Assembly (NCBI GenBank): GCA_937871715.1
Contig: CALMOE010000014.1
Span: forward strand, 1-51,592
Length of the DNA stretch: 51,592 nucleotides
Direction of reading: 5' to 3'
DNA from: an uncultured Geobacter sp.
GTDB taxonomy: Bacteria; Desulfobacterota; Desulfuromonadia; Geobacterales; DSM-12255
The notes beneath the pieces were generated by a model. It saw nothing but the letters and a program-made list of their open reading frames with translations, searched no databases and was not told the DNA's origin. This document shows, one piece after another, positions 5,767 to 26,722 of the stretch. Each line of letters opens with the position of its first letter. Position 1 is the stretch's first letter. Both the position numbers and the translations under genes were made by a program.

Positions 5767-6081
5767 TCACTTCTTGTGACACCCCTTGCAGGAGACAGGC
5801 CCCTTCTCGTACAGGTCGTGACATGGGATGCACAACTTGTGGGCAGCTGTCTCCCCCCAGTTTGGTATCTTGCCACTTTTCTTGTCGTGGCACTCCCAGC
5901 AGTTGTTATTGCTCAGCTTCTGGTGCTTATGGTGAGAAAAGGCGATTGTCTTCGTACCCATCTTGAACTGAATGGTTTTGGGACCTATGTCGGCTGGCGT
6001 TGCGGCAAAGGCGGACGTGCCCAGCAGCAATACCGAAAAGACAGACATAGCAGTATGACGGGAAACGACTCTATTTAGCAT
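5767..6081 (-). CDS. Small periplasmic triheme c-type cytochrome (c7-like)
   Basis: 104 residues with a signal peptide (~1-26, cleavage after AFA). Three haem attachment motifs follow: CWECH (61-65), CIPCH (84-88) and CKGCH (98-102). The AFSHHKH segment at 48-53 supplies extra histidines that could be axial ligands, as in cytochrome c7/PpcA-type proteins. Size and haem count match the periplasmic electron shuttles of Geobacter, although the spacing of the motifs places it in the broader c7-like family rather than clearly with PpcA itself. The start is the ATG with AGGAG seven bases upstream. The neighbouring PAS kinase is downstream and an aminopeptidase upstream, so no operon partner defines its role. 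Confidence 0.9.
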   Translation of the reverse strand: MLNRVVSRHTAMSVFSVLLLGTSAFAATPADIGPKTIQFKMGTKTIAFSHHKHQKLSNNNCWECHDKKSGKIPNWGETAAHKLCIPCHDLYEKGPVSCKGCHKK

Positions 6082-6199
6082 AACATTTCTCCTCTCTTGG
6101 CTAATCCGTTCATGCAGAGATCGTGACAAGAATCAACACAAACGAAAATATCTACATATCGAACCAACTGATATTGATGGGCCAGCAACATTGCCAGCA

Positions 6200-9737: not shown

Positions 9738-10727
9738 TTAGCGGGAACAGATCGAAAATACCACCATTTCCAGAACGGTCTGTTGCCTCCCACCGCTCTT
9801 CAAATCCAGATCGGCCTGATGCAGCCGCTCGAATATACCGAAGAACTCGACCGGGCTGAAATTCCTGGCCTGCTCCACCAGCCCTTTGAGAAAATATGGA
9901 TTTACCTTTGCTCTCCTGCCGATCTCCTCGTTAGCGACTCGTTTCTGCAGCAGGTCCCTGATTATGCAGAGCTGGCGAAAATGCCTGGCGAGGGCACCGA
10001 TCAGCATGTAGGGGGCATCCGCATCGCGCAATACCGTCTGCAGCTGACGCATCGCCTTGTCAAGATCCCGCCTCCCCAAAGCATCTGCCAGTTCGAAAGC
10101 ATTGTCTATCTTGGTATCTGATGCCATGGCGCGCACATCATCCATGGAAATCAGGCTCTGGTCGCCCGAGTAGGAGGCCAGCTTCTCCAGCTGGGCAACA
10201 AGCTCCCTGAGGTTATTGCCGCTGTAATAGACGAGCATCTCCGCGGCAGCAGGATCAATCCTCTTTCCCAGTCGCTCCGCCTCTTGCCTCACAAAAGCGG
10301 GCAACTGCTCATCCCTCATCCTTTTTATCTCTACAAGATAGTTCCCCTTTTTCAGCTCCTGGAAAAACTTCCTGCGTTGATCAGCCTTTACTGCCTGAAA
10401 CACGATGCAGCTCTCGCTCGCCGGATTCTGCAGGTAGGCAGCAAGCTGCTCGAATGCCTCAGCCGGCAACTCGTCCCCCCTTTTCACCAGGATGACCCTG
10501 CGCTGGGCAAACATCGGCAGGGTCATGGCAGAGTCGATTATCTGCTCAACCTTGACCTCCTTGCCATAGAAAACCGAAAAATTGAAGTCGCGGAAATCTG
10601 GCGAGACAATCCTCTCCAGCAGGCGCTGGACAGCACGCTCCACGAGGAACTCCTCATCCCCGTAAATAAAATAAAGGGGAGCGACCTCCCCTTTACCCAC
10701 CTTCTTCTCCAACTCCTCCGGACCCAT
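9738..10727 (-). CDS. holA: DNA polymerase III subunit delta
   Basis: 329 residues, typical length. The delta subunit is part of the clamp-loader complex; it opens the beta sliding clamp. The N-terminal AAA+-like domain contains the PLYFIYGDEEFLVERAV segment shared by HolA proteins but lacks a functional Walker A, as expected. The helical collar domain follows (~210-329). It lies 67 bases downstream of lptE and last in the leuS-lptE-holA run, and its end converges on the rpsT terminator. The start is ATG. Confidence 0.93.
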   Translation of the reverse strand: MGPEELEKKVGKGEVAPLYFIYGDEEFLVERAVQRLLERIVSPDFRDFNFSVFYGKEVKVEQIIDSAMTLPMFAQRRVILVKRGDELPAEAFEQLAAYLQNPASESCIVFQAVKADQRRKFFQELKKGNYLVEIKRMRDEQLPAFVRQEAERLGKRIDPAAAEMLVYYSGNNLRELVAQLEKLASYSGDQSLISMDDVRAMASDTKIDNAFELADALGRRDLDKAMRQLQTVLRDADAPYMLIGALARHFRQLCIIRDLLQKRVANEEIGRRAKVNPYFLKGLVEQARNFSPVEFFGIFERLHQADLDLKSGGRQQTVLEMVVFSICSR

Positions 10728-10794
10728 TAGCCAGCATCTCCGTGATTATTTTCGCCCGGCAAAACCGCCAGTTCCGCGATAATTGCACCTGTCA

Positions 10795-11295
10795 TCAAAA
10801 AAACCGTCTCATCTGCAGCACAAGGTGATGCGCCATCTCCCTGCACGCTTCCGACACCGCCCAGTCCCTGGCATTCCTCTGCAGGGCCATATCGCTGTTT
10901 GCCGGATACTCTTCCCTGACGATCTCCCTTGCTTTCCAGATCACCTTGCCGCTTTTCCCTTCAATGACACGGGCAAGAACCGTCAGCTGAATACGGTATA
11001 TCAGCACCTTGTCCTGGCCTGAAAATGACACGCTTTCCAGATTGAGGCTCTCCACATCACCATCCAGGAGCAGATCTGCCCCATCTTCTCCCAAGGTGAT
11101 TGGGAGAAAGGCGAGTTCTTTGGACAGCGCCTGGCGCAGCCTCCCTTCGACTTCAGGATAATGGCTGCTATTGGCAAAGGTGGCCACCTGAATGGAGCGC
11201 TCGTCAAATGGCGCCCCATCCTTGCGCAGCGGAGTGTAGCCACAACCGGCCAGGAAAAACAGTGCCACCAGCAATGGCAGAAACTTGCCGGACAC
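10795..11295 (-). CDS. lptE: LPS-assembly lipoprotein LptE
   Basis: 166 residues. A lipoprotein signal peptide ends in the lipobox LAGC (C18), so the mature protein is anchored to the outer membrane. The GYTPLR start of the mature chain and the ~150-residue alpha/beta body are typical of LptE, the plug partner of LptD in LPS insertion. It sits between leuS and holA, the arrangement found for lptE in many proteobacteria, which strengthens the call in the face of low sequence conservation. The start is GTG three bases after the leuS stop, with no strong ribosome site of its own, which suggests translational coupling. Confidence 0.85.
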   Translation of the reverse strand: MSGKFLPLLVALFFLAGCGYTPLRKDGAPFDERSIQVATFANSSHYPEVEGRLRQALSKELAFLPITLGEDGADLLLDGDVESLNLESVSFSGQDKVLIYRIQLTVLARVIEGKSGKVIWKAREIVREEYPANSDMALQRNARDWAVSEACREMAHHLVLQMRRFF

Positions 11296-11298
11296 CGA

Positions 11299-13767
11299 TC
11301 AGACCACCACGTTGAGAAGCTTGCCCGGGACGTAGATGATCTTCTTCGGGCTCTTCCCCTCAAGGTGCTGGATGACCCGTTCATCGACCATGGCAGCAGA
11401 CTTCACTTCCTCCTCCGTGGCGTCCGCCGCCACGGTAACACGGCCGCGCAGCTTTCCGTTAACCTGGACGACGATGAGAAGCTCCTCGTCTGCAGCGGCT
11501 TCCGGGTCGAAGGAGGGCCAGCCGGCCAGTTCGATGCCGCCGCTGTTGCCGATCCCCTCCCACAGCTCTTCGCAGAAATGGGGGACAAACGGGTAGAGCA
11601 GGAGCAGGGTGCTCTCCAGAGCCTCCTTCAGCAGGGGACCGTTTTCCGGGAGATTCTTTGCAGGAAATGCCTGGATGCCGTTCACCAGCTCCATGATGGC
11701 AGAAATCGCGGTATTGAAGTGGAAACGCTCGTCCAGGTCGGCACTCACCTTGCGAATGGTTTTATGCACCAGACGACGCAACGATCTGGACTCGTCGGAT
11801 AGTGCCGCAGGGTCCAGCGGTGAAGCGGATGCTATGAATGGAAGGGATTCATGCACCAGCTTCCACAGCCTGTTCAGGAAACGGAAACTACCGTCAACCC
11901 CCTGATCATTCCAGTCAAGATCCTTCTCCGGAGGAGCAGCGAAAAGGGAGAATAGCCGAGCAGTATCGGCCCCGTATTTTTCGATAAGGGCATTGGGATC
12001 AACCACATTCCCCTTGGACTTGCTCATCTTGGCACCGTCCTTGATTACCATCCCCTGGGTAAGGAGGTTGGTGAACGGTTCATCCACACTCACGTGGCCC
12101 AGGTCGCGCAGTACCTTGGTGAAGAAGCGGGCATAGAGAAGATGAAGGACGGCGTGTTCGATGCCGCCGATATATTGGTCAACGGACATCCAGTAGCGCA
12201 CCTTTTCACCGTCAAGCGGGCCGGCAGTGAAATCTGGCGAACAGTAGCGGAGGAAATACCAGGAAGACTCGACAAAGGTGTCCATTGTGTCGGTCTCACG
12301 GCGAGCCGGCTTGCCGCACTTTGGGCACTCCACATTGACAAAGGAGTCTATCCTGGCAAGGGGGCTCCCCCCCTCTCCGGTAAAGGCAACATCCAGAGGC
12401 AATTGGACAGGCAGCTCCTTTTCCGGAACAGGCACGGTGCCACAGCAGTCACAGTATATGATGGGTATCGGATTGCCCCAGTAGCGCTGCCTGGAAATTC
12501 CCCAGTCACGCAGGCGGAAATTGACGGTCTTCGTCCCCTTCCCTTCCGCTTCCAGCCAGTCAGCTATCTGCTCCTTCGCCTCGGCGCTGTTCATACCGTC
12601 AAACCTGCCGGAGTTGACCATGGTGCCGACCTCGGTATAGGCTGCAGTCATCTCTTCGGCGACCAGATTTTCCCCCGTCGGCATGATGACTACCTTGAGA
12701 GGGAGGTCGTACTTCTTGGCAAACTCGAAATCGCGCTGATCATGGGTCGGAACTGCCATGACCGCGCCAGTGCCGTAATCTGGGAGAACGAAATTGGCCA
12801 GGTAAATCGGCATTCTCGCCCCGGTTGCAGGGTTTATGCACCATGATCCGGTGAAGACCCCCTCCTTCTCCATATCTTCGGCAGTACGCTTGATCTTGTC
12901 CGTATTCTTGACTTTCTCCACAAAAGCGGCCACATCCGCGCTGCGCTCTTGGGTTGTCAGGGCCAGAGCCATGGGGTGCTCAGGGGCAAGGGACATGAAA
13001 GTCGCTCCGAAAAGGGTATCCTGCCTGGTGGTGAATACCCTGATGCACCCCTCCCCCTCCAGGGGGAAATCTATTTCACATCCGTAGCTCTTGCCGATCC
13101 AGTTTCTCTGCATGACAAGAACACGTTCAGGCCAGCCTGGCAGCTTGTTTGTATGGTCAAGCAACTCCTCGGCATAATCGGTTATCCTGAAGAACCACTG
13201 CTCAAGCTCCTTCTGGACCACATCGCTGTCGCAGCGCCAGCAACAGCCGTCCTCAACCTGCTCGTTGGCGAGCACGGTTTCACAGGACGGGCACCAGTTG
13301 ACGAATGAGCTTTTCTTGTAGGCAAGCCCCTTCTCGTACATTTCAAGGAAGATCTTCTGCTCCCAGCGATAATAGTCGACATCGCAGGTGGCAAGTTCCC
13401 GGTCCCAGTCGTAGGAGAGCCCCATGCGCTTCAACTGTCCACGCATGTAGTCGATGTTCTCCTTGGTCCACTTGGCAGGATGGGTCTTGTTCTGTATGGC
13501 GGCGTTTTCCGCAGGCATGCCGAAGGCGTCCCACCCCATGGGGTGCAGAACATTGAAACCGCGCATCCGCTTATGACGGCCGACGACATCACCGATGGAA
13601 TAGTTGCGCACATGTCCCATGTGAATACGTCCGGACGGATAGGGAAACATCTCCAGAAGATAATACTTCTGCTTGGCAGCATCCTCGCTGACCTTGAAAC
13701 TCTTCTCCGTATCCCACTTATTCTGCCATTTGCCCTCTACAGCAGCGGGCGAATACTTTTCAAGCAC
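11299..13767 (-). CDS. leuS: Leucyl-tRNA synthetase
   Basis: 822 residues, a normal bacterial length. The class I signature HIGH appears as HMGH (49-52) and KMSKS as KMSKSKG in the C-terminal half. Between them lie the zinc-binding segment (CPSCE...CCWRC) and the CP1 editing domain with the [10 protein letters not shown] region. The C-terminal anticodon-binding and leucine-specific domains are present, so the gene is intact. The start is GTG with GGAGGG seven bases upstream. The gap to the upstream cytochrome gene is only 31 bases with no terminator visible, so it may be partly read from the signalling cluster. Confidence 0.98.
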
Positions 13768-13798
13768 TTTATAACCCTCCGTGACCTATTAGATCAGT

Positions 13799-15940
13799 TT
13801 ATTCAAATCCCTGCTCTTTATGACATCTCTCGCAGCTGGCCGGATCCCTGGTGGAAAATGCCATCTGGAACCCATGACAGGCGCCGCATGACTTCCCAAC
13901 ATTCATATCGGCCATGGTAACCGGCTTTCTATTCACACTTGCGGGAACGATCTTGTAGTGACAGTCATTGCAGCGGTAACCCCGTCCAAGGTGGATCTTG
14001 TGACTGAAAATAACCGGTTGCAGGTCCTTCTTGTTGGGGAAGTCATAACGAATCGCCTTGAGCGCCGGATGGCACTTCTGGCAGTTGTCAGTAACCGTGA
14101 ACGCATCCTTGCCGTTGTGGCATTTGCCACATGATGACCCCTTCTCCATGTCGGTCATGGAGTGGCGACGGTTCCCCTCTCCGGGGACGAATATCTTGTC
14201 ATGACAGTCGGTGCAGCGGTATATCTCCAGGTGGAACTTATGGCTGAATAGAGCCCCCGAATCCCTGAATGCGACGTCTTTTACCGGATGGCACCTGTCG
14301 CAGGACCCCTTGACCGAAAAAGCACTCTTACCGTCGTGACAGGCACCGCAGGAGTTGCCGTTCTCCAACTGGGCCATATTGAATCGCTTGGCATTTTTGC
14401 CCAAGGGGATGATGCTGTAATGACACTCTTCGCACTTGAAGGCTCCAGTGTGGAACTTGTGGCTGAAGGTTACCGGACCGGTCTCCCTGACAGGGATTTT
14501 AATCTCCTTGGTCGATGTGTGGCACCTGACGCAATCACCCTTTACCGAAAAGGCGAAGATATTGTCATGGCATGCCCCGCATGAGCGGTCCTTCTCCATC
14601 TCCGCCATGGTGTAGCGCCTGTTCTCGCTGTTTGGTGTAAAGAATGCGTTGTGACAATCGCTGCAGCTGTACAACTCCAGATGACGTTTATGGGGAAACC
14701 GCGCATCCGCCGTGAAATAGATATCCCTTACAGGGTGGCATTTGCTGCACTCCTTGGCCACGGAAAATGCAGTTTTGCCATCATGACAGGCACCGCAGGA
14801 TGAACCTTTCTCCATTTGCGCCATGGAATATGATTTTCGCTGCGCTCCGGTGGTAAATATCTTGTTGTGGCAGTCATCGCACTTGTACATCCCCAGGTGA
14901 AATGTGTGGCTGAACTCCACCTTGCCAGCATTGACTATGTCGAAGAGTATATTCCTGGTCTTTGTATGGCACCTGTCGCAGCTGCCGGTGACGCTGAAGG
15001 CGATTTTTGAGTCGTGGCATGCACCGCAGGAGAGATCTTTCTCCATATCCCCCATGGAGTACCTGCGACTCTTGACACCGCCGACAAAAATGCCGCTGTG
15101 ACAATCGACGCATACATACATCTTCTTGGTCGAGTCGGTATGAATCTCATGGCTGAAGCGGGCGGCACCTGCCTTGAAATCGACGTCCGGCTTGGCGGTA
15201 TGACACTTGTTGCAATCACCCCGAACGGAGAAGGCATCCTTGCCGTTGTGGCACCCTCCGCAGGAGAGCCCGTTTGCCATGTCACTCATCAGGTAACGCT
15301 TGCTGTTGGGACCCGCGACAAAAAGTCTGCTGTGGCAGTTGCCGCACTGATATCCCATGCCAAGGTGGATGTTATGGCTGAACAGGGCATCGGCGTCGAA
15401 GCTGATATCCTTGACGGCATGACACTTGGTGCAACTGCCTGTTACGCTGAATGCCGTCTTGCCGTCATGGCATCCGCCGCAGGAAGCTCCACCCTCCATC
15501 TGCTTCATCGTCACATGTGGATTGGTGCCGTCGGCCTTGAATAGCCTGGTGTGACAATCGGTGCAGGTAAACAGGGAGAGGTGAAATTTGTGACTGAAAA
15601 GGACCGAGCCGAAATCCGGAATTTTGATGGCTAACTCTTTGGTCCTGTGACAGGTGGCGCACTCGGTCAGTCCGAACGCACGTATCTTGTTGTGGCACAG
15701 GCCGCACGACTTGCCGGTCTCCATATCGGCCATTGTTGCTGTAGGATTTTTCGCCCCTATCTTGAATACAGAATTGTGACAGAGAGTACAGTTGTTGCCG
15801 AGCTTTTTCAGATGCGGGTCGTGGGGGAACGGGACATTCCCCACGGTGGTCGTCTTGATGGTAACGTTCTTGAAATCTTTTGCAAAGAGTAATACAGGCA
15901 CAAATATCAGCAGAAAGGCCTGCAGCCAGAAGCGTTTCAC
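13799..15940 (-). CDS. 27-haem c-type cytochrome made of nine triheme c7-like modules
   Basis: 713 residues with an N-terminal signal peptide (~1-20, ending VLLFA). I count 27 CxxCH motifs and no CxxCH of odd spacing, arranged as nine modules of about 75-80 residues with three haems each. Most modules repeat the order FSHxxH, CxxCH, an M-rich stretch, SCGxCH, FSV, CxxCH; the FSHxxH histidines are probable axial ligands. It resembles the polymers of c7 domains known from Geobacter, in which modules are strung end to end to make long haem chains (a 27-haem example in G. sulfurreducens is GSU2210, from memory). The location is periplasmic or beyond. The start is GTG with GGAG six bases upstream. 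It is the last gene of the chemosensory cluster, 26 bases after a CheY-like gene. It has no membrane anchor beyond the signal peptide. Confidence 0.95.
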   Translation of the reverse strand: MKRFWLQAFLLIFVPVLLFAKDFKNVTIKTTTVGNVPFPHDPHLKKLGNNCTLCHNSVFKIGAKNPTATMADMETGKSCGLCHNKIRAFGLTECATCHRTKELAIKIPDFGSVLFSHKFHLSLFTCTDCHTRLFKADGTNPHVTMKQMEGGASCGGCHDGKTAFSVTGSCTKCHAVKDISFDADALFSHNIHLGMGYQCGNCHSRLFVAGPNSKRYLMSDMANGLSCGGCHNGKDAFSVRGDCNKCHTAKPDVDFKAGAARFSHEIHTDSTKKMYVCVDCHSGIFVGGVKSRRYSMGDMEKDLSCGACHDSKIAFSVTGSCDRCHTKTRNILFDIVNAGKVEFSHTFHLGMYKCDDCHNKIFTTGAQRKSYSMAQMEKGSSCGACHDGKTAFSVAKECSKCHPVRDIYFTADARFPHKRHLELYSCSDCHNAFFTPNSENRRYTMAEMEKDRSCGACHDNIFAFSVKGDCVRCHTSTKEIKIPVRETGPVTFSHKFHTGAFKCEECHYSIIPLGKNAKRFNMAQLENGNSCGACHDGKSAFSVKGSCDRCHPVKDVAFRDSGALFSHKFHLEIYRCTDCHDKIFVPGEGNRRHSMTDMEKGSSCGKCHNGKDAFTVTDNCQKCHPALKAIRYDFPNKKDLQPVIFSHKIHLGRGYRCNDCHYKIVPASVNRKPVTMADMNVGKSCGACHGFQMAFSTRDPASCERCHKEQGFE

Positions 15941-15966
15941 TAAAATCTCCTTGGACCTTAAACCTT

Positions 15967-16344
15967 TCAAGCAAGCTTTAACAGCTGTTTGGCAACATCC
16001 AGTATTTTGTTAGGCTGAATCGGTTTCGTTATATAATCGTTTGCGCCGAGTGCCAAGGCCCTTTGCCTATCCTCCTGGGCACCTTCGGTGGTAATGACCA
16101 CGATCGGCACCCCCTTATGATTCGGCTCATCTCGTACCAGACTTATGAGTTTCAATCCATCCATCACCGGCATGTTTATGTCGGTAAAGATCATGTCGAA
16201 CTTTTCCGCCGAAATCTTTTTCAGTCCATCAACTCCATCGCTGGCTTCGACTATTCTCACCCCTCTGATCCTTTTCAGGGCAAAGGAGATAAGCTGCCTC
16301 ATTGTGGGCGAATCTTCAACTATCAAAATATTATAATCAGCCAT
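15967..16344 (-). CDS. CheY-like response regulator preceding the 27-haem cytochrome
   Basis: A 125-residue single receiver. E10/D11 (IVEDSPT), D55 (FTDINMP), T in ITTEGAQ and K in ITKPIQ are all present, so it should be phosphorylatable. The motif set (SPTMRQ, TDINMPVMDGLKL) is close to that of chemotaxis CheY. It is one of three such free receivers in the cluster and lies between the GAF protein and the cytochrome gene, with gaps of 30 and 26 bases. Confidence 0.92.
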   Translation of the reverse strand: MADYNILIVEDSPTMRQLISFALKRIRGVRIVEASDGVDGLKKISAEKFDMIFTDINMPVMDGLKLISLVRDEPNHKGVPIVVITTEGAQEDRQRALALGANDYITKPIQPNKILDVAKQLLKLA

Positions 16345-16374
16345 AACCCCTCCGAGTTAAATACAATTGACGAC

Positions 16375-17199
16375 TTATTTGGTCAGCAGGTCAAGGAAAC
16401 CTTGAATGGTCGAAAGCCTTCTCTCGGAATCAGAGTAGAGTCTCGCGCCGAAAATTGCAGTCGCCGCATGGCCGGCAAGGAGCGTGAAGAGCTCGTAGTC
16501 AACCTGGGCAAACTGATCCTTCTGTAAGAGGAGCTTGTAGATTGAGAGCACGCCGATCACATGGTCCTTGATCTTAAGCGGCACACATACCATCGGATTC
16601 AGTATGTCGCGCTGGTAGCTCTCCAGATCATCGGTGAAATAACTCTCTCCACTCTGCAGTGTCTGCCCGATCAGTCCACTGCCAAGCTTGACCGGAGGCA
16701 CTTCGTCCCGGTCCAGCCCCTCACAGGCCACGGCCTGCAGATCACCACTCTTTTCATCCAGCAGCATCAGGGCGAACTCTTCGGCACCGATCAGATTGAT
16801 GACGATCTCCATGATTATCTGCAGAACCTCCTTGAAGTCCAGCGTGGAATGGAGTTGATAGCTGGCTATGTACAGGTTTGCCAGATTGTTGTTTTCTGCC
16901 TCTATCTCTACGTAGCGATTGGCAAAATCCTGGTTTTCATCCTCTATCTGCTGGATGCGGTCGAGAATAGCCTTCTTTTCCTGCTCCAGCTCGCTTATGC
17001 GCTGTATGAGCGCCTGACTCTGACTGTCCGGGCCACTGCCAGCAGTCGCGCTGTTAAGGGAGTTTTCAAGCTCCAGCACACGGTAGCGCAGGCGCTCATT
17101 CTCCCTGAGCAGATCCTGGGTAAACTCGGCCCCCTTCTTGAAAACCTGGAGGAACTCCTCAGCCTTCCCACGATAGCCGGATTCTTCCTCTATAGTCAT
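16375..17199 (-). CDS. Coiled-coil plus GAF domain protein of the chemosensory cluster
   Basis: 274 residues. A heptad-rich coiled coil (~30-115, many E/L/Q residues) precedes a GAF domain (~125-262) that contains the typical PLKIKDHVIGVLSIYK strand pair. There is no kinase or cyclase domain and no membrane segment, so it is a soluble sensor or adaptor that could bind a small ligand and pass a signal through the coil. In an operon with no methyl-accepting receptor it is a candidate for the sensory input. The start is ATG with AGGAGG eight bases upstream; the GTG two codons earlier is too close to the site. The cheB stop is 15 bases upstream. Confidence 0.82.
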   Translation of the reverse strand: MTIEEESGYRGKAEEFLQVFKKGAEFTQDLLRENERLRYRVLELENSLNSATAGSGPDSQSQALIQRISELEQEKKAILDRIQQIEDENQDFANRYVEIEAENNNLANLYIASYQLHSTLDFKEVLQIIMEIVINLIGAEEFALMLLDEKSGDLQAVACEGLDRDEVPPVKLGSGLIGQTLQSGESYFTDDLESYQRDILNPMVCVPLKIKDHVIGVLSIYKLLLQKDQFAQVDYELFTLLAGHAATAIFGARLYSDSERRLSTIQGFLDLLTK

Positions 17200-17214
17200 T
17201 TCCACAACCTCCTG

Positions 17215-18291
17215 TTAGGCTGTTGCGGTCAAAAAACCGCAACTTTCCATGATCGCGCCTGCCATCTTGCCTAGGGACACGACCCGATCCACTGCTCCAG
17301 TGGCAATCGCCTCTCTGGGCATACCGAAGACCACTGCTGAATCCTCGGCTTCGGCCAACACGCTTCCACCGCACTCCTTTATCCTCAGGACACCCTTGCT
17401 ACCGTCATTTCCCATGCCGGTAAGGACAACAGCCAGAGCCATTGTGCCATATACTGAGGCAACCGATGACAGCATCACATCGACAGAAGGGACGTATTTG
17501 TCCTCCTTGGTCGGGACCTTCAATCTTACAATTACCTGATCATCATGCCTTGCTGCAACCATATTCATCCCGCCGGGGGCGATCAGGACCGCATTGGGCC
17601 TGATGACTTCACCATCGATCGCCTCGCGCACATCAAAAGGAAACATGCGGTTGAGACGCTCTGCAAAGGCCCTTGTAAAACCAGACGGCATATGCTGTGA
17701 AATAAGCACCGCGAATGGCAATGTGCCGGGCAACTGGGAGAGGATCTTCTGCAGTGCCGGGGGGCCGCCCGTGGACGAGCCGATGGAAACCACCTCGAAC
17801 CTCTGTTTCCCCCCCTTTGGGAGCCTGGCAGGTCTGCGCACAGGAAGGTTCTCCTCCTGCACCACCATCTTCGTCCTGACCTTCACACCCTGAAGGTTAA
17901 GATTGAATACGTTGGAGACCTTCTGCTGCAGCTCCTCACGAATCTCAAGAAGCTGCTCCGAGACAACCTTGCCGGGCTTGGCAACAAAGTCTACGGCACC
18001 AAGCTCCATGGCCTTGAACACCCTTTCATCTTCGTTCTGGGCACTGACCACGATGACCGGCGTGGGACATGCATTCATGATGATTCGCAGCAGGGTAAAG
18101 CCATCCATACCCGGCATTTCCAGATCCAGGGTAACCAGATCTGGACGGAGATCTATGACCTTGCGCAACCCCTCCTCACCGTTTACGGCATAACCCACAA
18201 CCTCGACCCCGGCCAGCTCTTCAAGCAGCTTGATTATGGTTCTTCTGCTGTATGCAGAGTCATCTATGACCAGTACTCGTACGGTTCTCAC
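17215..18291 (-). CDS. cheB: Chemotaxis response regulator / protein-glutamate methylesterase CheB
   Basis: 358 residues with a receiver (D10/D11, phospho-acceptor D56, K105) joined to a methylesterase domain. The catalytic triad is visible as S173 (GSSTGG), H200 (SQHMP) and D296 (GMGNDG). CheB removes methyl groups from receptor glutamates and can deamidate glutamines, usually when phosphorylated by CheA. The start is GTG overlapping the cheR stop as GTGA, so the two opposing enzymes are made together. No receptor is encoded nearby to serve as substrate. Confidence 0.96.
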
Positions 18292-19163
18292 AATAACCCC
18301 GTTTCAAGCCTGCCAGGCTTTTCATAGACCATATCGTTTTTCAAGTGACGCAGCTTGAAGGCCGTTGTGATGTTCATCAGAGACTCCGAATGCCCGAGAA
18401 GCAGGAAACCTCCGGAATTTAGCGAGTTATAGAACTGCTCGACAACCTTTTTCTTTGCAGGCAGATCGAAGTATATGATCACATTCCGACAGAAGACTAT
18501 GTCCATTTTGCCGAGGAACAGAAACCTGCTCTGGTCATATAGGTTGAGACGACTGAATGTTACCAGTTCACGTACACTGTCTGCAATCCTGAACTGGCCA
18601 TCCTGTTCATGAAAATAACGACTCTTGTAAATCTCGTCCGTCACACGGAAGGCGGAACTGCCATATACCCCCTTGCGCGCCTGATGCAGGACCCTCTGGC
18701 TGATATCAGTGCCCACGATCTCTATCTTCCACCCCGAAAGCTCCGGCTTTTCCATAAGAAGCATGGCGATCGTATAAGGCTCCTCGCCGGTGGAACAACC
18801 AGCGCTCCAGATTCTTAGAGTCCTGTCCCCCCTTGCCCCCTTGATCGCCGTTAATTCCGGAATGATCTCCTCTGAAAATGCCCTTAACTGGAAAGACTCT
18901 CGGAAAAAATAAGTCTCATTGGTGGTAAGGACATCCATGATGTCCGAAAGCTCCATCTCCCTGTTCTGATCGTATTTCAGATAGTAATAATAATCATGAA
19001 AAGTAGCGAACTGCAGCTGCGTCAGCCTTGGTGTCAGGCGCCTTTCCAGGAGAAAACGGTTTTCATCGGCAAAATACAGACCGCTATAGTTATAGATGAG
19101 ATCCCGGACAAGCAGGAACTCATCGTCAGTCATTTTTATGTCGTTATCACAGAAAAAGAGCAT
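18288..19163 (-). CDS. cheR: Chemotaxis protein methyltransferase CheR
   Basis: 291 residues: an N-terminal helical domain (~10-75) and a SAM-dependent methyltransferase domain with the binding motif [16 protein letters not shown] and the later [10 protein letters not shown] segment. It methylates glutamates of chemoreceptors. No TPR or pentapeptide-tethering extension is present. The start ATG overlaps the stop of the HEAT-repeat gene by one base (TGATG). An internal ATG at residue 11 is an alternative start. Together with cheB it implies that a methylated receptor, encoded elsewhere, works with this cluster. Confidence 0.96.
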
Positions 19164-20986
19164 CAGATACTTTCCGTCACTCCATCCAGAAGTCCCCTGG
19201 CCACTCTTGCCACCTCATAGTCATTGTCCTGCTCCGCCTTTAACAGGTAGGGGAGTGCCTGCTGCGGAGAGATCTGGAAAGCCGCCTGCAGGGCGGTTAT
19301 GAGCAGCATACCGCTGGAGCTTTCCAGAATGGAGATGATCCCAGGGAGGGCAGAGTGTTGCTTGCGTCGGCCAAGGCTTTTAAGAACCGCCACCTGAACC
19401 CGGGGGGACGGGTCGCTCATGGCAAGAAGCAGCGAACCAGCCTCGTCGGCGAAACCTGGCCAACCAAGGGCAGTTGCCGCCGCTACCCTTACATCCAGAT
19501 CCTCATCAGCCAGGGCCATTGACAACCTTCCCGAACTGGCCGGCAGATGCAATTCCCCCAGGTAGGTTACCGCCTCCCGACGAACAATCGGGTCCTCATC
19601 CTTGCTCATAAGGACAAGATGCGACTCATCACGCAACGAGCCAAGCAGCTTGACTGATTGCAGACGGCAACCCGGCTCCTCGGATTCGGCAAGGCGTTTA
19701 GCCGCTGATGAAACGGAAGCGGGATCGGCATTGGCAAGACGCACCAGCGCGCCGGTCACTTTGCGCCTGACATCGGCGGACGGGTCGTTCAAAAGCCTCA
19801 ACAGAGCAGGGATGAGTTCGGTCATTTCCGCCTTGCCAACTGCTTCCACGGAAAGCGCCCGGACAAGCGGCACGCCATCGCTTAACCCAGCAGCGGCAAT
19901 CCTGACACAGGCTCTGAGCCTTAATTCTCCCGCAATGTGAGCGATAATGCAGCGGGTTTCGTCATCTGCTGAAGCAAATCGATTATGAAGCTGCTCCCCA
20001 CCTTCCTCACCGAGGCTGCCAAGCGCCGCCAGGATACTCTGCCTCATCTTTTCCTCACGATATTCCATGAGAAACAGATCTATGGCGCGCAAGTCCTTAA
20101 TTGCACCCAGGATAGCAATTACAGCCAACTTTACCCTGCTGTCCTGATTTCCATGCATCAAAAGCAGGTTCTCGACGGTCTCACTGCCAACAAGCAGGCG
20201 AAGACAAGGATCTATGCTCTCCTCTATCTCCTCCTGACTCGAACGGCGCCTGATCGAGTCCAGTGCAACAACCGCCGCCGCACGGACGGTTCTGTTTCTG
20301 TCGTGCAGGGCTTCAGCCAAAAGGTTTGCAGCCTCGTAGTTACCGACCATGCCGATGCACTCATAGAGAGCCTTCTTCATGAGGGGATTTTCTGCCAGGT
20401 GGGTGATCTTTCCCAATGGAACTGGAGCCCCTATCTTAACTAGCGCCTTAAGAATTGCGTATCTGAGCAGGAATTCGTCCCGGTCCAGTGCATTGAGCAG
20501 ATCTGGTACTGCCTGTTCATCACCAATTAGGCCGAGGCTTTCAGCCGCGGCTGCTGCCACATTAGAATCTTCATCATGCAAAACCAGGACGAGTTTGGCA
20601 ACCGACGATGGATCACCTATCCCACCCAGGATGTCCACAATGAACTTGCGTACGCCAGGATCATTATCCTGCAGGGCCTCAAACAGCTGGGGGAGCACGG
20701 AGGAACCGAATGTCTGCAACACCTCAACAACCGAATTCCTCAGGCCTGCATTGCCATGAACCGACAGGAGGGCTATCAGTTCCCGCGCCAGGTCTGCAGT
20801 TGCAGTATAAAGAAGAATAGTATCAACAGCCTCTTTCCTGACTCTCCAACTTTCATCCCCAAGGGAAGCAAAAAGAAGTTCGTGCACTTCGGCCAAAGGA
20901 AATCCGGCAAGGGCACGCACTGATATGCGTCTCTCCTCCTCGTCAGAAGAGCCAAGTCTGCCGCGCAGATCTTCTATCCTTTCCAC
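19163..20986 (-). CDS. HEAT-repeat protein of the chemosensory cluster
   Basis: 607 residues made almost entirely of HEAT/PBS-lyase-like helical repeats of about 31 residues, for example DPSSVAKLVLVLHDEDSNVA and similar units throughout. No signal peptide, membrane segment or catalytic motif was seen. Such solenoids act as scaffolds. Being coupled to cheR by a one-base overlap suggests that it binds CheR, CheB or the receptor array. The start is GTG with an AGAGGTGG site upstream. The role is inferred from position only. Confidence 0.85.
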   Translation of the reverse strand: MERIEDLRGRLGSSDEEERRISVRALAGFPLAEVHELLFASLGDESWRVRKEAVDTILLYTATADLARELIALLSVHGNAGLRNSVVEVLQTFGSSVLPQLFEALQDNDPGVRKFIVDILGGIGDPSSVAKLVLVLHDEDSNVAAAAAESLGLIGDEQAVPDLLNALDRDEFLLRYAILKALVKIGAPVPLGKITHLAENPLMKKALYECIGMVGNYEAANLLAEALHDRNRTVRAAAVVALDSIRRRSSQEEIEESIDPCLRLLVGSETVENLLLMHGNQDSRVKLAVIAILGAIKDLRAIDLFLMEYREEKMRQSILAALGSLGEEGGEQLHNRFASADDETRCIIAHIAGELRLRACVRIAAAGLSDGVPLVRALSVEAVGKAEMTELIPALLRLLNDPSADVRRKVTGALVRLANADPASVSSAAKRLAESEEPGCRLQSVKLLGSLRDESHLVLMSKDEDPIVRREAVTYLGELHLPASSGRLSMALADEDLDVRVAAATALGWPGFADEAGSLLLAMSDPSPRVQVAVLKSLGRRKQHSALPGIISILESSSGMLLITALQAAFQISPQQALPYLLKAEQDNDYEVARVARGLLDGVTESI

Positions 20987-20999
20987 AGACCACCTCTTT

Positions 21000-21914
21000 T
21001 CACTTTATTCCCAGTTCAATCTTCTTCTTTTCAACCAGTTCGGACAGCGCCTCCCCAAAATAGTCGTTGTCGTCCCTGGCAGCAGCTGGCAGCCTCTCTT
21101 CATAAATGGAGCGCCCGTCAAGAATCTCATCGCCGAGAGCCTCTTCTAGATTGCCGGACATCACACCTTGTTCAAACTGCTTCTCGCTGTATAGCGAGAT
21201 GTCCGACACTATGCTCCGGGCAAGATGGCGCGCAGCTTCGACATCGCTTTCCTTTAAATTTCCGGGCTCAGGCAGATGATGGCCCCTCAACTCCTTTCGT
21301 ACCAACTCCTGGCTGGCAGCCTCGGCAGAGGTCAATCTGTCCGGTGATGTAGCTATCAGTTTTTCAACCTTTGCCATATCGCCGTTATTCGCATCAACCG
21401 GCCTGGCATCGGCAGCCAAGCGATAGATCATACCAGCAAGGGAGTCTGGGATATGGTGCTGCTCGATGTAGTCGTCCGCACCGTACAGCGACTGGGGAGA
21501 GCGTTTGTACTTGGTCTTGTCGTATATTGCCGCAAGAAGAATGATTTTTATGTTGCGGGTACGCTGGTCGTTACGCAGAGACTCGCACACCTGAAAACCG
21601 TACAATGTGGGTAGTGCAACATTGAGCAGCACAACATCAGGAACCAGTTTCAGAGCGATATCCAGCGCCTCCTTGCCGTCATGACTGGAGATGACAGTGA
21701 ACGGCTCGGAAGCAAGCACCTTCTGCACAGCAGAGCAGAACTCCCTGTTCTCGTGGGCAACAAGCACTGTGAGACGGCCTGAGCGAGCCTCGTTGTCAGC
21801 GGCCAAACGAAATACAGAACTGCACTTGCTGCAGCGCAATCTAACCCCGGAACTGCCAACTTTCTGTTCATTAAGCCGAAATCTGGTCTTGCAGACCGGA
21901 CAACATATGAGCAT
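21000..21914 (-). CDS. Zinc-ribbon protein with a degenerate receiver domain
   Basis: 304 residues. Residues 5-31 form an MJ0042-type zinc finger (CPVC and CSKC pairs). A receiver-like domain follows (~47-165), but the phosphorylation site is changed: the position of the aspartate is N98 (LLNVALP) and the acidic pair reads HE (54-55). The conserved lysine is also missing. It therefore probably cannot be phosphorylated and may act as a docking or decoy domain. The C-terminal ~130 residues are charged and helical without a recognised domain. The start is the ATG opening MLICCPVC; a TTG 14 codons earlier lacks a ribosome site and would overlap cheW. Confidence 0.82.
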   Translation of the reverse strand: MLICCPVCKTRFRLNEQKVGSSGVRLRCSKCSSVFRLAADNEARSGRLTVLVAHENREFCSAVQKVLASEPFTVISSHDGKEALDIALKLVPDVVLLNVALPTLYGFQVCESLRNDQRTRNIKIILLAAIYDKTKYKRSPQSLYGADDYIEQHHIPDSLAGMIYRLAADARPVDANNGDMAKVEKLIATSPDRLTSAEAASQELVRKELRGHHLPEPGNLKESDVEAARHLARSIVSDISLYSEKQFEQGVMSGNLEEALGDEILDGRSIYEERLPAAARDDNDYFGEALSELVEKKKIELGIK

Positions 21915-21948
21915 GTTAATATTTTCTCCCAATTGGACTTCGTAACTA

Positions 21949-22413
21949 CTAGGCAATACTCCCCAGTTCCATGACCTCGCTACAGGTAAGCAACCTGTCT
22001 ATATCGAGCAGCATGACGAGAACATCAGCTGACAGACATACACCCAGAAGATATTTTGCGGAAACACCTTCCGCAACTGTTGGCGGAGGCTTGATCTCCT
22101 TTACCGGAACAGTGATCACCTCGGTAACATCATCCACGACAAGTCCAAGAGACTGTCCGGCCACTCGCGAAATAAGGAGCCGGGTTGCAGCGCTTGCCGG
22201 CCTGGGCGGCATATCGAATCTCTTACGCAGATCCACAACCGGAATGACGTTACCCCTTAGATTGATAACCCCTTCTATAAAGGAGGGGGCTTTCGGCAGT
22301 ATCGTCAGCTTTTGCGGCCGAATAATCTCGTTGATCCTCATGATGTCCACTGCGTAGAGATCATCCATAAGCCTGAAACAGGCAACCTGTATCTCAGTAA
22401 TTCCGCCGCTCAT
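21949..22413 (-). CDS. cheW: CheW-type scaffold protein
   Basis: 154 residues comprising a single CheW SH3-like domain; the motifs EGVINLRGNVIPVVDLRKRF and GLVVDDVTEV are diagnostic. CheW links CheA to receptors. It is the second of two CheW proteins in this cluster and lacks the acidic arm of the other. The start is ATG with AGAGG five bases upstream. The phosphorylatable regulator gene upstream ends 50 bases before. Confidence 0.95.
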   Translation of the reverse strand: MSGGITEIQVACFRLMDDLYAVDIMRINEIIRPQKLTILPKAPSFIEGVINLRGNVIPVVDLRKRFDMPPRPASAATRLLISRVAGQSLGLVVDDVTEVITVPVKEIKPPPTVAEGVSAKYLLGVCLSADVLVMLLDIDRLLTCSEVMELGSIA

Positions 22414-22463
22414 CCCTGCCTCTTTTCGTCATATGAATTGAGTACATTTTCCACATCTTGGAT

Positions 22464-22838
22464 TCATTTATGCTTGAGCAAGCTTTCTATCGTTTCAATA
22501 ATTTTTACCGACTTGAAAGGCTTGGTAATATAGGCGTCGGCTCCGACCTGAGCCCCCCTTGCCTGATCCATGCTCCCTTTCTTGGCGGTCAACATGACAA
22601 CGGGGATGCTGCTGGTAAGCGGATCCTCCTTGATGCGCCTGCAAACCTCGAAACCGTCAATACCCGGCATCATGATATCCAGCAGAACCAGATCCGGCCT
22701 GTCAGTGGCGATCGCCTTGAGTGCAGCCATGCCGTCGGTAACACCCCTGACATGGTACCCCCTCGATGTCAGGAGAATGCTCTCCAGCTTAAGCAGACTC
22801 TCCTCATCTTCAACAATAAGAATTCTATTATTTGCCAT
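22464..22838 (-). CDS. CheY-like response regulator between the two cheW genes
   Basis: 124 residues: E10/D11, phospho-acceptor D54 (LLDIMMP), T in MLTAKKG and K in ITKPFK. Sequence features (SRGYHVRGVTDG, GFEVCRRIKEDP) are closer to PleD/DivK-type receivers than to flagellar CheY, so it may feed a different output. It has no effector domain. Confidence 0.93.
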   Translation of the reverse strand: MANNRILIVEDEESLLKLESILLTSRGYHVRGVTDGMAALKAIATDRPDLVLLDIMMPGIDGFEVCRRIKEDPLTSSIPVVMLTAKKGSMDQARGAQVGADAYITKPFKSVKIIETIESLLKHK

Positions 22839-22892
22839 AACATTAGTTCTCCGTTAACTGCAAGAGGATGGTAAACCGCTCACCGGATGACA

Positions 22893-23792
22893 TCAATGTA
22901 TCTCTAGGTTCAGTATGCTTTCCAGGTTGAGGAGTATCAGCATCCTGCTGTCAAAATGACCGAGCCCCATGACAAATTCCCTGTCAATGCCATCGAGAAT
23001 AGCAGGAGGCCCCTCTATTGCATCCTGCTTAAGCCTCACCACCTGAATCACTTCGTCGACAAGCACACCACAAAATCCTGAAGGGGTCCTGAGCACCAGC
23101 ACCCTCTCCCTCCCTGTAGGTTGGCCGTACGGCAGGGAGAGACGAAGACGCATGTCCATTATGGGTATGATTACTCCTCGCAGCGAAATAACGCCGGAGA
23201 TGAATACTGGCATACGCGGAACTTCCGTAACCTCGCGCGGCTTGATGATCTCCTTGATATCCAGGATACTCAGGGCATACTCTTCGTCCGCCACCTTGAA
23301 ACAGAGATACTCTTCCACATCACCAGCAACGCTAACCGCCTCTTCGGCAGTTGCCTCGCTGTCATCAGCAGCAGAAGATATGCGGCCGGCGAGAATGGTT
23401 GCTACGGGGTCATAAGCCGGATATCTGACCGCAGTCCCACCCTGCACCCCGGACTCTCTTGGCGCAACAGTCACAATAGACTCAGAAAGCGGTTCGGAAT
23501 CCGCATTTGACATCTCATTGAAAAATTCATCAGGAGTCTCAGGCGGAATGGGCGAAGTTTCTTCAACAGCTTCAACCTGAAAGCTCTCCGACTCTTCCTC
23601 AACCCCCTCCAGATCGAAACTGCCAATCTCCTCCTGAAATCCCCCGGAGATCTCCCATTCAGGCAACGGACCAGCATCCATGATTTCAGGTGTGAGATAA
23701 TCGACACTTTCTGCAGGTACCTGCTCGTCTGGAGCATCTGATTGTTGCTTGCTTGCCTCGGCAGCTTTTTTTCTTATCTCTGCTAGGTTCAT
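22893..23792 (-). CDS. CheW-domain protein with a long acidic N-terminal arm
   Basis: 299 residues. The first ~150 are low in complexity and rich in E, S and P, with no predicted fold. Residues ~155-297 form a CheW domain with SGVISLRGVIIPIMDMR and GVLVDEVIQVV. The arm may space the CheW module from the array or recruit another cluster protein. The start is the ATG opening MNLAEIRKKA with GGAAG six bases upstream. An earlier ATG at 23834 would overlap the ATPase gene and lacks a site. It lies 13 bases after the ATPase stop. Confidence 0.88.
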   Translation of the reverse strand: MNLAEIRKKAAEASKQQSDAPDEQVPAESVDYLTPEIMDAGPLPEWEISGGFQEEIGSFDLEGVEEESESFQVEAVEETSPIPPETPDEFFNEMSNADSEPLSESIVTVAPRESGVQGGTAVRYPAYDPVATILAGRISSAADDSEATAEEAVSVAGDVEEYLCFKVADEEYALSILDIKEIIKPREVTEVPRMPVFISGVISLRGVIIPIMDMRLRLSLPYGQPTGRERVLVLRTPSGFCGVLVDEVIQVVRLKQDAIEGPPAILDGIDREFVMGLGHFDSRMLILLNLESILNLEIH

Positions 23793-23805
23793 AGTGATCT
23801 TCCGC

Positions 23806-24612
23806 TTAGAGTAACAGTTCGGATGCAATGGCATCTATTATTGTAGCATCTATCATTGCAGAGTCTCGGCCATACCCTTCAAGTATGGCATTTGTGGCAA
23901 TAAGATTAATCCTGCGAGGAACACCTCCTGACAGTTCATAGATGCGCTGTACCGCGTCAGGCGAGAATAGCCCCCCCAAACCTCCGGCAACCTCAAGGCG
24001 GTAATCCAGATAATCGAGAATATCATCCATTCCGAGGGGTGACAGATGGTAATGCATGGTAATTCGCTGTTTCAGTGGCTCGAAGACCGGACTGGAAAGC
24101 ATATTGCGCAGCTCTGGTTGCCCCATGAGAATGACGCTGAGCAGATTCCTGTCATCCAGCTGATAATTGGTCAGCAGCCTGATCTCATCGAAGATTTCAT
24201 TGTCAGGAATCAATTGTGCCTCGTCGATAATAACGACCGGGCAGATACCTTCATTATGGAACATGAACAGGGCATCGGCAATCTGGTTCAACAGACCCTC
24301 CTTGTCCTCAACCGGAGGTGTCGACAGAAGAGCCCGGGCAATGGTACGGAGGAACTCCAGGGTATTCAGGCGTGGGTTGACGATGAAACAGAATCGACAG
24401 CTGTCACCCATGCTGTCCATAAGAGCCCGCGAAATGGTCGTCTTGCCGCAACCGATTTCCCCCGTAAGCAGGGCAATCTCCCTCTCCTCGATGACGTATT
24501 GCATACGTGCAAGTGCTTCCCTGTGCCCCTTGCTGAGGTAAAGGAACCTTGGATCCGGAGTCTTGCTGAAGGGACGCTCCCTTAATCGGTAAAAATCCTT
24601 GTAGATAAGCAT
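23806..24612 (-). CDS. ExeA/GspA-like AAA+ ATPase of the chemosensory cluster
   Basis: 268 residues. Walker A is GEIGCGKT (51-58) and Walker B VVIIDE (126-131), followed by the MGQPELRNML and SGGVPRRIN sensor segments of the ExeA/GspA and TniB-like ATPase group. The PFSKTPDPRFLYLS opening is typical of ExeA proteins of type II secretion and pilus systems. Unlike ExeA it has no transmembrane helix or peptidoglycan-binding domain. It overlaps the cheA stop by one base (TGATG), so it is made in step with the kinase. Its function in a chemosensory operon is unknown. A role in placing or remodelling the array is an inference. Confidence 0.85.
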   Translation of the reverse strand: MLIYKDFYRLRERPFSKTPDPRFLYLSKGHREALARMQYVIEEREIALLTGEIGCGKTTISRALMDSMGDSCRFCFIVNPRLNTLEFLRTIARALLSTPPVEDKEGLLNQIADALFMFHNEGICPVVIIDEAQLIPDNEIFDEIRLLTNYQLDDRNLLSVILMGQPELRNMLSSPVFEPLKQRITMHYHLSPLGMDDILDYLDYRLEVAGGLGGLFSPDAVQRIYELSGGVPRRINLIATNAILEGYGRDSAMIDATIIDAIASELLL

Positions 24613-26687
24613 CAGGCCTGACCACCACCCTTGGTAGCTTCGTTAATGATGCCACCGACGTCAAGTACCAGTATGGTTCTCTGATCCCCCAGATCGGCTG
24701 CACCGGAAACCCCCCTGACCCCTTCGAATACCGGGCCAAGGGTCTTGATGACAATATCCTGCTGACCGAGAAGTTCGTCCACCACAATGCCGAGTCGCTT
24801 GTCAGCCACACCTACAACGACGACAAAGACATTTTCTCCGGCCGCTTCACCGTCGAGGTGAAAGAAACGGTTGAGCCGCAACAGCGGCAGTGTGCTCTCC
24901 CGCAGCTGAATCACCTCTTTCCTCTCAACGGTAAGGATGTCAGCCGGCTCAATCATTATGGATTCGAGTACCGATGTTATCGGCAGTGCATAGTAGCGGC
25001 CGGCAGTGGAGATGATCAGCGCTTTTATGATCGCCAGGGTTATGGGGAGGGTTATGGTCATCCTGCTCCCCTCACCATGGACACTCTCAACGTCGACCAT
25101 TCCGCTGACAGCTGCAATGTTGTTCTTCACCACATCCATGCCAACGCCGCGACCGGAAATCTCGCTTACGGTTTCGCTGGTGGAAAAACCGGGGAGGAAT
25201 ATGAGCTCCACTGCTTCGCGATCGCTCAGATTGTCATTGGGTGAGATCAGCCCTTTTTCTATTGCCTTGCGTTTAACCTTGGCCACATCGATACCGCGAC
25301 CGTCGTCTTCCACTTCGATAACGACATGGTTACCCTTCTGGTACGAAGAGAGCTTTATTGTGCCGCGCTCGTCCTTGCCTCTGCCGCGACGCTCTTCCGG
25401 CAACTCAATCCCGTGGTCAATCGCATTCCTTATTATGTGCATCAGAGGATCGGCAATATCCTCCATGATAAGCTTGTCCAGCTCGGTGTCGGCACCGAAC
25501 ACACGCAGATCGACCTTCTTGCCCTGTTCCTTTGAGATCTTTCGGACTATTCTCCCCATCTTCTCGTACAGTTGGCCAACGGGGATCATCCTTATCTCCA
25601 TGACCCCCTTCTGCAGTTCGTTAAGCTTCCTCTCAAGCCCCTTGGCTGCCTTAAGAAGCTCGGCCAGCATGGTGGAATATCCTGCCTTGCGCATCTTCTC
25701 GGCAATGTCAGATATGGTTGAGTGGGATAGCACCAACTCGCCTACTATGTTCATCAGGTCGTCGAGCTTGCCGATGTCAACCCTGACGGTGCGACTCATG
25801 CTCTTGGCAGTTATGCCTGCATCGGCGGGTGCAGCTGCATTTGGCTTCACAGCATCGCTCTCGGCTGCTTCCGGATATGCATCCTCCGCAACGACAGTAT
25901 TTCCGGTAGCGGAAGTGGGAATCACCACCTGTTGTCCGTTGACCTGCCTGACAACAACATTACCATCGGCAACAAGCGCGACTATCTCTGCCATAGGCTT
26001 GGCTGAGCCGAAAAGTATCTCGAAATCAATGGAAGACTCTATACTGGCACCAACACTCGGCAGCGTACTGATTACTTCTCCGTTTTTCTTCAGCTGATCC
26101 GTCAACTCCGCCAGATCCTGATCAAAAGTTGCCAGGCTGAAGGAAGCAAGCACAGTGAAGATGTTTCTGGATTTTTTTATATTTTCCAGCAAACGATGCT
26201 CTTCGTACTCGGTAAGGGCGTTGATCATCGACCGGGGAATTTCCAGAGATGACAGCAGGGAATCGCTCTCCACCCCCTCATTGCCCGAAACGCAGTCATT
26301 GATCCGCTGGAGCAGCGACTGGACAGATATCTTCTCGCTAACACCCTCGCCAAGATTGCGAATCATTATGCCCAGTGCTTCGAGAGAGTCGGTCAATACA
26401 ACGACAACCTGCGGTCCGATGGCAACCTTACCGAGACGCAGGGAGTCGAGCAGATTCTCCAGGTTATGGGAAAGATCCTGTATCCCGTTGAAACCGAACA
26501 TGCCTGCCAATCCCTTGAGGGAATGAGCTCCCCTGAACACCGAATTGAGAGAGTCAGGGTCGCACTCCCCCCCTTCAGAAGATTCGCTTAACACACCTAT
26601 ATCTGCACAGAGCTGGTCGAGAATCTCCTCGGCTTCAGCAAGAAAGTCCTTTACGGCCTTCCCTGAAACATCATTAACTCCGGACAT
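24612..26687 (-). CDS. cheA: CheA-type histidine kinase of the receptor-less chemosensory cluster
   Basis: 691 residues. Order: Hpt domain with H55 in AHSLKGLAG; a poorly conserved region (~155-240) that may be the regulator-docking P2 domain; a variable linker; the P3 dimerisation helix starting VRVDIGKLDDLMNIVGELV; the ATPase with HIIRNAIDHGIE and DDGRGID; and a C-terminal CheW-like P5 domain. All kinase motifs are intact. The start is the ATG opening MSGVNDVSG with GGAG six bases upstream; a TTG six codons earlier has no site. A free receiver gene lies 35 bases upstream and the coupled ATPase gene follows. Confidence 0.96.
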   Translation of the reverse strand: MSGVNDVSGKAVKDFLAEAEEILDQLCADIGVLSESSEGGECDPDSLNSVFRGAHSLKGLAGMFGFNGIQDLSHNLENLLDSLRLGKVAIGPQVVVVLTDSLEALGIMIRNLGEGVSEKISVQSLLQRINDCVSGNEGVESDSLLSSLEIPRSMINALTEYEEHRLLENIKKSRNIFTVLASFSLATFDQDLAELTDQLKKNGEVISTLPSVGASIESSIDFEILFGSAKPMAEIVALVADGNVVVRQVNGQQVVIPTSATGNTVVAEDAYPEAAESDAVKPNAAAPADAGITAKSMSRTVRVDIGKLDDLMNIVGELVLSHSTISDIAEKMRKAGYSTMLAELLKAAKGLERKLNELQKGVMEIRMIPVGQLYEKMGRIVRKISKEQGKKVDLRVFGADTELDKLIMEDIADPLMHIIRNAIDHGIELPEERRGRGKDERGTIKLSSYQKGNHVVIEVEDDGRGIDVAKVKRKAIEKGLISPNDNLSDREAVELIFLPGFSTSETVSEISGRGVGMDVVKNNIAAVSGMVDVESVHGEGSRMTITLPITLAIIKALIISTAGRYYALPITSVLESIMIEPADILTVERKEVIQLRESTLPLLRLNRFFHLDGEAAGENVFVVVVGVADKRLGIVVDELLGQQDIVIKTLGPVFEGVRGVSGAADLGDQRTILVLDVGGIINEATKGGGQA

Positions 26688-26722
26688 GGCATTCTCCATA
26701 AGCAACTGAGTACGAGATGGAT

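Follow-up and report, generated by a model that had tools for sequence, protein, structure and literature searches.

The monomeric periplasmic nanowires of Geobacter sulfurreducens comprise GSU2210, which contains 27 hemes, and GSU0592 and GSU1996, which contain 12 hemes each (PMC10138318). In the modules of these proteins one heme has His/Met coordination, while the hemes of PpcA-type cytochromes are all bis-His ligated (PMC10138318). The hemes of GSU1996 lie with edge distances of 3–5 Å (PMC10138318) and the four-module molecule has a length of 12 nm (Pokkuluri 2011, as cited in PMC12094021). A role as a capacitor has been proposed for GSU1996 (PMC10138318), and its deletion lowers the reduction of ferrihydrite (PMC12094021). 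In the open literature searched, 27-heme members are named only in lists and we found no experiment on one.

Here we describe a 27-heme cytochrome encoded in a 51,592-nucleotide stretch of DNA from an uncultured Geobacter sp., called the window below. The protein is a GSU2210-type cytochrome, a kind already known in Geobacter, and is not unusual in kind. GSU2210 likewise has 27 hemes and is a periplasmic nanowire of the GSU1996 class (PMC10138318), and its locus tag is near those of GSU2220–2222 (CheW, ATPase and CheA), which fits the gene order of the locus studied here. The putative orthology with GSU2210 is based on heme count, class and gene order; those orthologues within the same order that can be aligned are 52–86% identical. 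The studied cytochrome and GSU1996 have the triheme module, the distal histidine pair and a methionine motif in common, but GSU1996 contains four modules rather than nine. The triheme c7 cytochromes PpcA–E show the same three-heme fold (Z about 5 for the PpcA type) and the same FxHxxH distal pair as the studied modules, but are single-domain proteins. OmcS, OmcE and OmcZ resemble the studied cytochrome in being heme chains for electron transport, but they are extracellular polymers of separate subunits, unlike this single chain. The same genome also encodes a four-module, 12-heme relative on contig C239.

Gene, signal peptide and location

The open reading frame lies on the minus strand, from a GTG at position 15940 to a stop codon ending at 13799, and encodes a product of 713 amino acids. 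The initial annotation had given these coordinates correctly but without the strand; translated in the plus direction, the interval is interrupted by stop codons. A ribosome-binding site, AAGGAG, can be read 6 nt before the GTG (15947..15952, minus strand). We rejected a longer, TTG-started frame reaching to 15970, which has no ribosome-binding site of the AAGGAG kind and overlaps the stop codon of cheY. A consensus scan for a promoter belonging to the cytochrome gene itself gave no more sites than were obtained from shuffled sequences.

Residues 1–20 (MKRFWLQAFLLIFVPVLLFA; 15881..15940, minus strand) are hydrophobic, begin with K2 and R3 and have the character of a Sec-type signal peptide without a lipobox; the AlphaFold model has a hydrophobic helix at residues 3–22. 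All 54 cysteines of the protein lie inside heme motifs, leaving none for a lipobox, and because this is combined with a Sec signal peptide we place the cytochrome in the periplasm. The protein had been annotated as “periplasmic or secreted,” of which the first term is favored by these features while the second found no support.

Family membership and heme motifs

The NCBIfam profile TIGR04257 (nanowire_3heme) matches the protein over nine stretches with a score of 720 bits (cut-off 40), and in a six-frame profile search each of the nine modules lies above the cut-off. The Pfam domain Cytochrome_C7 (PF14522) is also found nine times, in agreement with the earlier description of a chain of c7-like triheme domains. 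The best solved relative by sequence is the dodecaheme GSU1996 (3OV0, E = 1e-74), and all of the strong solved matches are pieces of this protein (PDB 3OV0, 3OUE, 3OUQ and 1RWJ). None of OmcS, OmcE or OmcZ was among the sequence or fold matches.

These matches bear on whether the protein could instead be secreted or reside on the outer surface, as a subunit of an extracellular filament like OmcS, OmcE and OmcZ. Many multiheme cytochromes of Geobacter are extracellular, and the initial annotation had left room for secretion. The strong solved matches are however confined to GSU1996, which is monomeric and periplasmic (PMC10138318), and the signal peptide has no lipobox, making an extracellular role very improbable.

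The translated product contains exactly 27 CxxCH motifs, while the variants CxxxCH and CxxxxCH are absent from all 713 residues. Six-frame translation of the rest of the window (approximately 49 kb) yields only a handful of CxxCH motifs, of which a single short triheme open reading frame accounts for three, so the occurrence of 27 in a single frame is not due to chance. The small frame (5767–6129, minus strand) encodes 120 amino acids with a signal-like start, an FSHHKH segment and three CxxCH motifs, and is a triheme cytochrome of the c7/c3 type.

In the 27-heme protein (13799..15940, minus strand) the motifs are arranged as nine FxHxxH segments with three CxxCH after each. Seven of the segments are FSHxxH and the other two, in modules 1 and 6, are FPHxxH; the numbers of modules and motifs, and the presence of FSHxxH in most modules, had all been correctly read before. 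On the basis of motifs and conservation among orthologues, module 1 comprises residues 38–98 (15647..15829), with FPHDPH, three CxxCH motifs and Met70. It is followed by module 2 at residues 115–174 (15419..15598; FSHKFH, Met145), module 3 at residues 187–247 (15200..15382; FSHNIH, Met218), module 4 at residues 262–325 (14966..15157; FSHEIH, Met296) and module 5 at residues 343–402 (14735..14914; FSHTFH, Met373). Module 6 comprises residues 415–474 (14519..14698; FPHKRH, Met445), module 7 residues 492–551 (14288..14467; FSHKFH, Met522), module 8 residues 565–624 (14069..14248; FSHKFH, Met595) and module 9 residues 645–707 (13820..14008; FSHKIH, Met676), all on the minus strand.

Heme ligands

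Besides the 27 histidines of the CxxCH motifs the protein contains 20 others, 18 of which form the nine FxHxxH pairs while two lie outside invariant columns. One heme per module cannot be bis-His ligated, because each module supplies only two distal histidines. In GSU1996 one heme per domain is His/Met ligated, with Met209 and Met287 the axial ligands in domains C and D (PMC10138318). When counted along the sequence of the solved chain, these two residues correspond to the first methionine of an xM..M motif. Across 30 orthologues the 27 proximal histidines, the 18 distal histidines and the first methionine of all nine modules (residues 70, 145, 218, 296, 373, 445, 522, 595 and 676) are invariant. 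The second methionine of the motif is not invariant, and is a leucine in module 7 of the studied cytochrome. From homology we predict His/Met coordination of one heme in each module, giving a predicted complement of 18 bis-His and 9 His/Met hemes. From its composition the mature apoprotein would have a mass of about 76.6 kDa, which 27 hemes of 616 Da would raise to about 93 kDa. We take the first methionine to be the ligand of the third heme of each module, as in the established c7 topology. The FSHxxH segment had been put forward as the ligand segment, which is right for the two distal histidines of a module but misses the predicted methionine ligand of the third heme.

Predicted structure

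An AlphaFold model of the whole chain, made with the 30 orthologues, has a pLDDT of 68 and a pTM of 0.35, and a separate model of modules 5–8 is no better (the pTM of the models ranges from 0.35 to 0.39). A single module superposes on 1RWJ with a Z of 10.3 and 2.6 Å over 75 residues, and modules 5–6 superpose on 3OUQ with a Z of 10.9 and 3.4 Å over 146 residues, so that GSU1996 is the best match in fold as well as in sequence. Four modules fit 3OV0 with an rmsd of 10–11 Å (10.2 Å for the whole-chain model), in models that are of moderate confidence and contain no hemes. The modeling therefore fixes single modules and pairs of modules only, and not the overall shape. The protein had been envisaged as a long, wire-like molecule. 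An extended chain of hemes is likely from the homology to GSU1996, a crystallized heme wire of 12 nm, but the low pTM and the poor fit to 3OV0 do not support a straight wire. If extended in the same way as the four modules of GSU1996, nine modules would measure about 27 nm.

Module number, linkers and age

All 35 intact orthologues contain nine modules and 27 CxxCH motifs. Of 315 comparisons of a module with those of another genome, 311 gave its positional counterpart as the nearest match, so the order of the nine modules is older than the split of the families f1, f3 and f4. Within the protein the modules are 37–60% identical, modules 2–8 being 45–60% identical (mean 53%), while the DNA of modules 2–8 is about 59% identical, and Tandem Repeats Finder reported no array at the DNA level in the gene. 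Modules 2–8 had been called close copies, a description that does not hold at these identities, whereas the remark that the first and last modules differ was borne out, modules 1 and 9 having the lowest identities. Judged by sequence, the module duplications are old and not recent, and recent duplication or concerted evolution of the modules is ruled out by the same-position neighbors together with the lack of DNA tandem repeats.

The linkers between successive modules are near-invariant in length at each position, with 16, 12, 14(15), 17(18), 12, 17, 13(11–12) and 18–20 residues. Linkers in the four-module, 12-heme class are 16–21 residues long, and nearly all of them exceed in length those at joints 2–3, 3–4, 5–6 and 7–8 of the 27-heme protein. 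Because the connecting segments are shorter at four of its eight joints, the 27-heme protein is not simply a longer GSU1996, and the heme path across these joints may differ from that in GSU1996.

It could be argued that the array has been expanding freely and in recent times, so that the number nine is an accident of this genome. The homology of the modules is obvious, and the wider family includes members with 3, 4, 5 or 6 modules within the order and with 7 or 12 outside it. The constant module number, the positional matching of modules, the position-specific linker lengths and the absence of a DNA tandem repeat all speak against this explanation, which is refuted for the orthologues sampled and which we regard as exceedingly improbable.

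Other members of the wider family were seen in the course of these comparisons. Frames of 965–972 amino acids with 36 CxxCH motifs and twelve TIGR04257 modules (912 bits) occur at L136:9732-12626 (plus strand) and at L137, L138 and L139, in genomes G158, G157, G156 and G151, all from a single genus that shares the class but not the order. These frames, which are longer than the 27-heme form, are not located beside che genes or leuS, and their modules are on average 65% and up to 82% identical, more alike than those of the 27-heme protein. A 584-amino acid open frame with 21 CxxCH motifs and seven triheme modules of 75% mean identity is found at L140:7737-9488 (minus strand) in genome G141. Relatives with five or six modules (15 or 18 hemes) occur at loci L084, L085, L087, L089–L092, L094 and L099, in genomes G117, G116, G122, G067, G065, G066, G123 and G115. 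At least in L084 and L089 pairs of modules are 80–93% identical, so these five- and six-module arrays have grown recently, unlike the 27-heme one.

Gene neighborhood

The cytochrome gene lies between a chemosensory cluster and a set of housekeeping genes, all on the minus strand. Profile matches and comparison of loci place a CheY-like single receiver 26 nt upstream (15967..16344) and the rest of the cluster at 16375..26705, which encodes, from the cytochrome outward, a GAF protein, CheB, CheR, a HEAT-repeat protein, a Zn-ribbon receiver, CheW, a CheW-like protein, an AAA ATPase and CheA. By the same methods leuS was placed 31 nt downstream of the cytochrome (11299..13767), followed by lptE (10795–11295) and holA (9738–10727). 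The HEAT-repeat protein (607 amino acids; 19163–20986, minus strand) is only 34–67% identical between genomes, and its che neighbors are better conserved.

By locus tags, the cluster is that of GSU2220 (EsnB), GSU2221 (ATPase) and GSU2222 (EsnC) in G. sulfurreducens, and it presumably corresponds to beta-group cluster 5 of Tran 2008. That cluster has CheA, ATPase, CheW-like, CheW, CheR and CheB in order, as here, but is a signaling cluster and not a cytochrome. Mutants in GSU2220–2222 fail on electrodes, whereas on Fe(III) oxide they do not (PMC5585712). The main text of PMC5585712 contains no mention of GSU2210, and that of Tran 2008 no occurrence of the word cytochrome.

All 18 long orthologous loci show the order che–cytochrome–leuS; six of them duplicate genomes that are also represented under other numbers or by short contigs, which makes the independent number somewhat lower. 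Among 36 short loci leuS is downstream in all; upstream, 32 have che genes and the remaining four run into the edge of the contig. Wherever the contig extends far enough, the cytochrome gene comes after CheB or CheY, in the same orientation. In all 36 genomes that have both genes on one contig, the cytochrome is 5.5–8.6 kb from the AAA ATPase gene, and within the same genus and family the gap to CheY is 25 nt.

This arrangement could mean that the cytochrome belongs functionally to the upstream Esn-type system, acting as a periplasmic redox reporter or as a co-regulated electron-transfer component for growth on electrodes. The constant same-strand position behind CheB or CheY, the narrow range of distances to the ATPase gene, the short gaps and the match of the cluster to genes needed on electrodes are all in its favor. 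However, leuS, lptE and holA, which are not connected with sensing, are equally constant neighbors, the receptor EsnA lacks a periplasmic domain (PMC5585712), and we found no phenotype for GSU2210 in the literature searched. About 85 genomes carry the che ATPase without a 27-heme gene, and in 20 of 20 genomes chosen for lacking the cytochrome the che–leuS–lptE–holA block is complete and no other gene occupies the position of the cytochrome. Since the block persists in this way, the linkage reflects vertical inheritance and is not proof of a common function, and the case for a functional tie to the che cluster from synteny is weakened. We therefore regard membership of the Esn-type system as unlikely and the linkage to sensing as suggestive only. 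A more specific form, in which the cytochrome would be a dedicated redox component of an electrode-sensing operon, is decidedly unlikely; here its charge state would report the back-pressure of periplasmic electrons, or the pathway would tune the amount of cytochrome, and the extrapolated length of a chain with fixed modules and linkers would suit a span of the periplasm.

The segment CheA–AAA–CheW–HEAT–CheR–CheB–leuS–lptE–holA (9738–26705 in the window; compared at loci L116–L135) is conserved throughout the order, including genomes that lack the genes for the cytochrome, the GAF protein and CheY. Such a long-lived linkage between a che cluster and the housekeeping genes leuS, lptE and holA is unusual.

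Distribution and inheritance

The 27-heme gene is present in about 43 of 141 genomes of the order, so the architecture is not unique to this genome, and it is dispensable since about two thirds of the order lack it. By hand count the che ATPase is present in about 126 of the 141, of which about 41 have the cytochrome. On a tree of leuS there are 6 changes between presence and absence of the cytochrome, of which at least 4 fall on strongly supported branches, and the cytochrome and leuS trees have 7 of 14 splits in common, against 0.26 in shuffles. Repeated horizontal gain is not favored, given this agreement and a chromosomal site that is identical everywhere. The best reading is that of an old gene at one site, which has been vertically inherited and lost several times.

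Proposed function

The cytochrome is probably a periplasmic nanowire of the GSU2210 type, which would store electrons and pass them on for extracellular respiration. This proposal builds on observed features, namely the 27 heme sites, nine modules, signal peptide, conserved ligands, homology, set of orthologues and gene order. After export and attachment of heme the polypeptide would consist of nine c7-type triheme modules in a row, in each of which two bis-His hemes and one His/Met heme would be packed edge to edge as in GSU1996. Small periplasmic donors such as small cytochromes would charge the chain, which could hold up to 27 electrons, and the electrons would pass along it to be discharged to conduits in the outer membrane. 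The heme packing, the role as capacitor or relay and the connection to extracellular electron transfer are probably as described, by homology to GSU1996, a protein with only four modules and with longer linkers (16–21 residues, against 12–15 at the four short joints).

We found no description, in open-access text, of the fixed pattern of nine modules and linkers or of the constant site at the end of an Esn-type cluster. The position of the 27-heme gene at this end suggests a possible tie to electrode sensing. A 2026 study describes the multiheme cytochromes of Geobacter as diverging fast and as being acquired horizontally and lost at high rates (PMC12977616). In contrast to the trend described there, the 27-heme cytochrome has, wherever it is present, a single site on the chromosome, nine modules and linkers of fixed length. 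It is therefore well suited for asking whether selection acts on the length and geometry of a single-chain heme wire.
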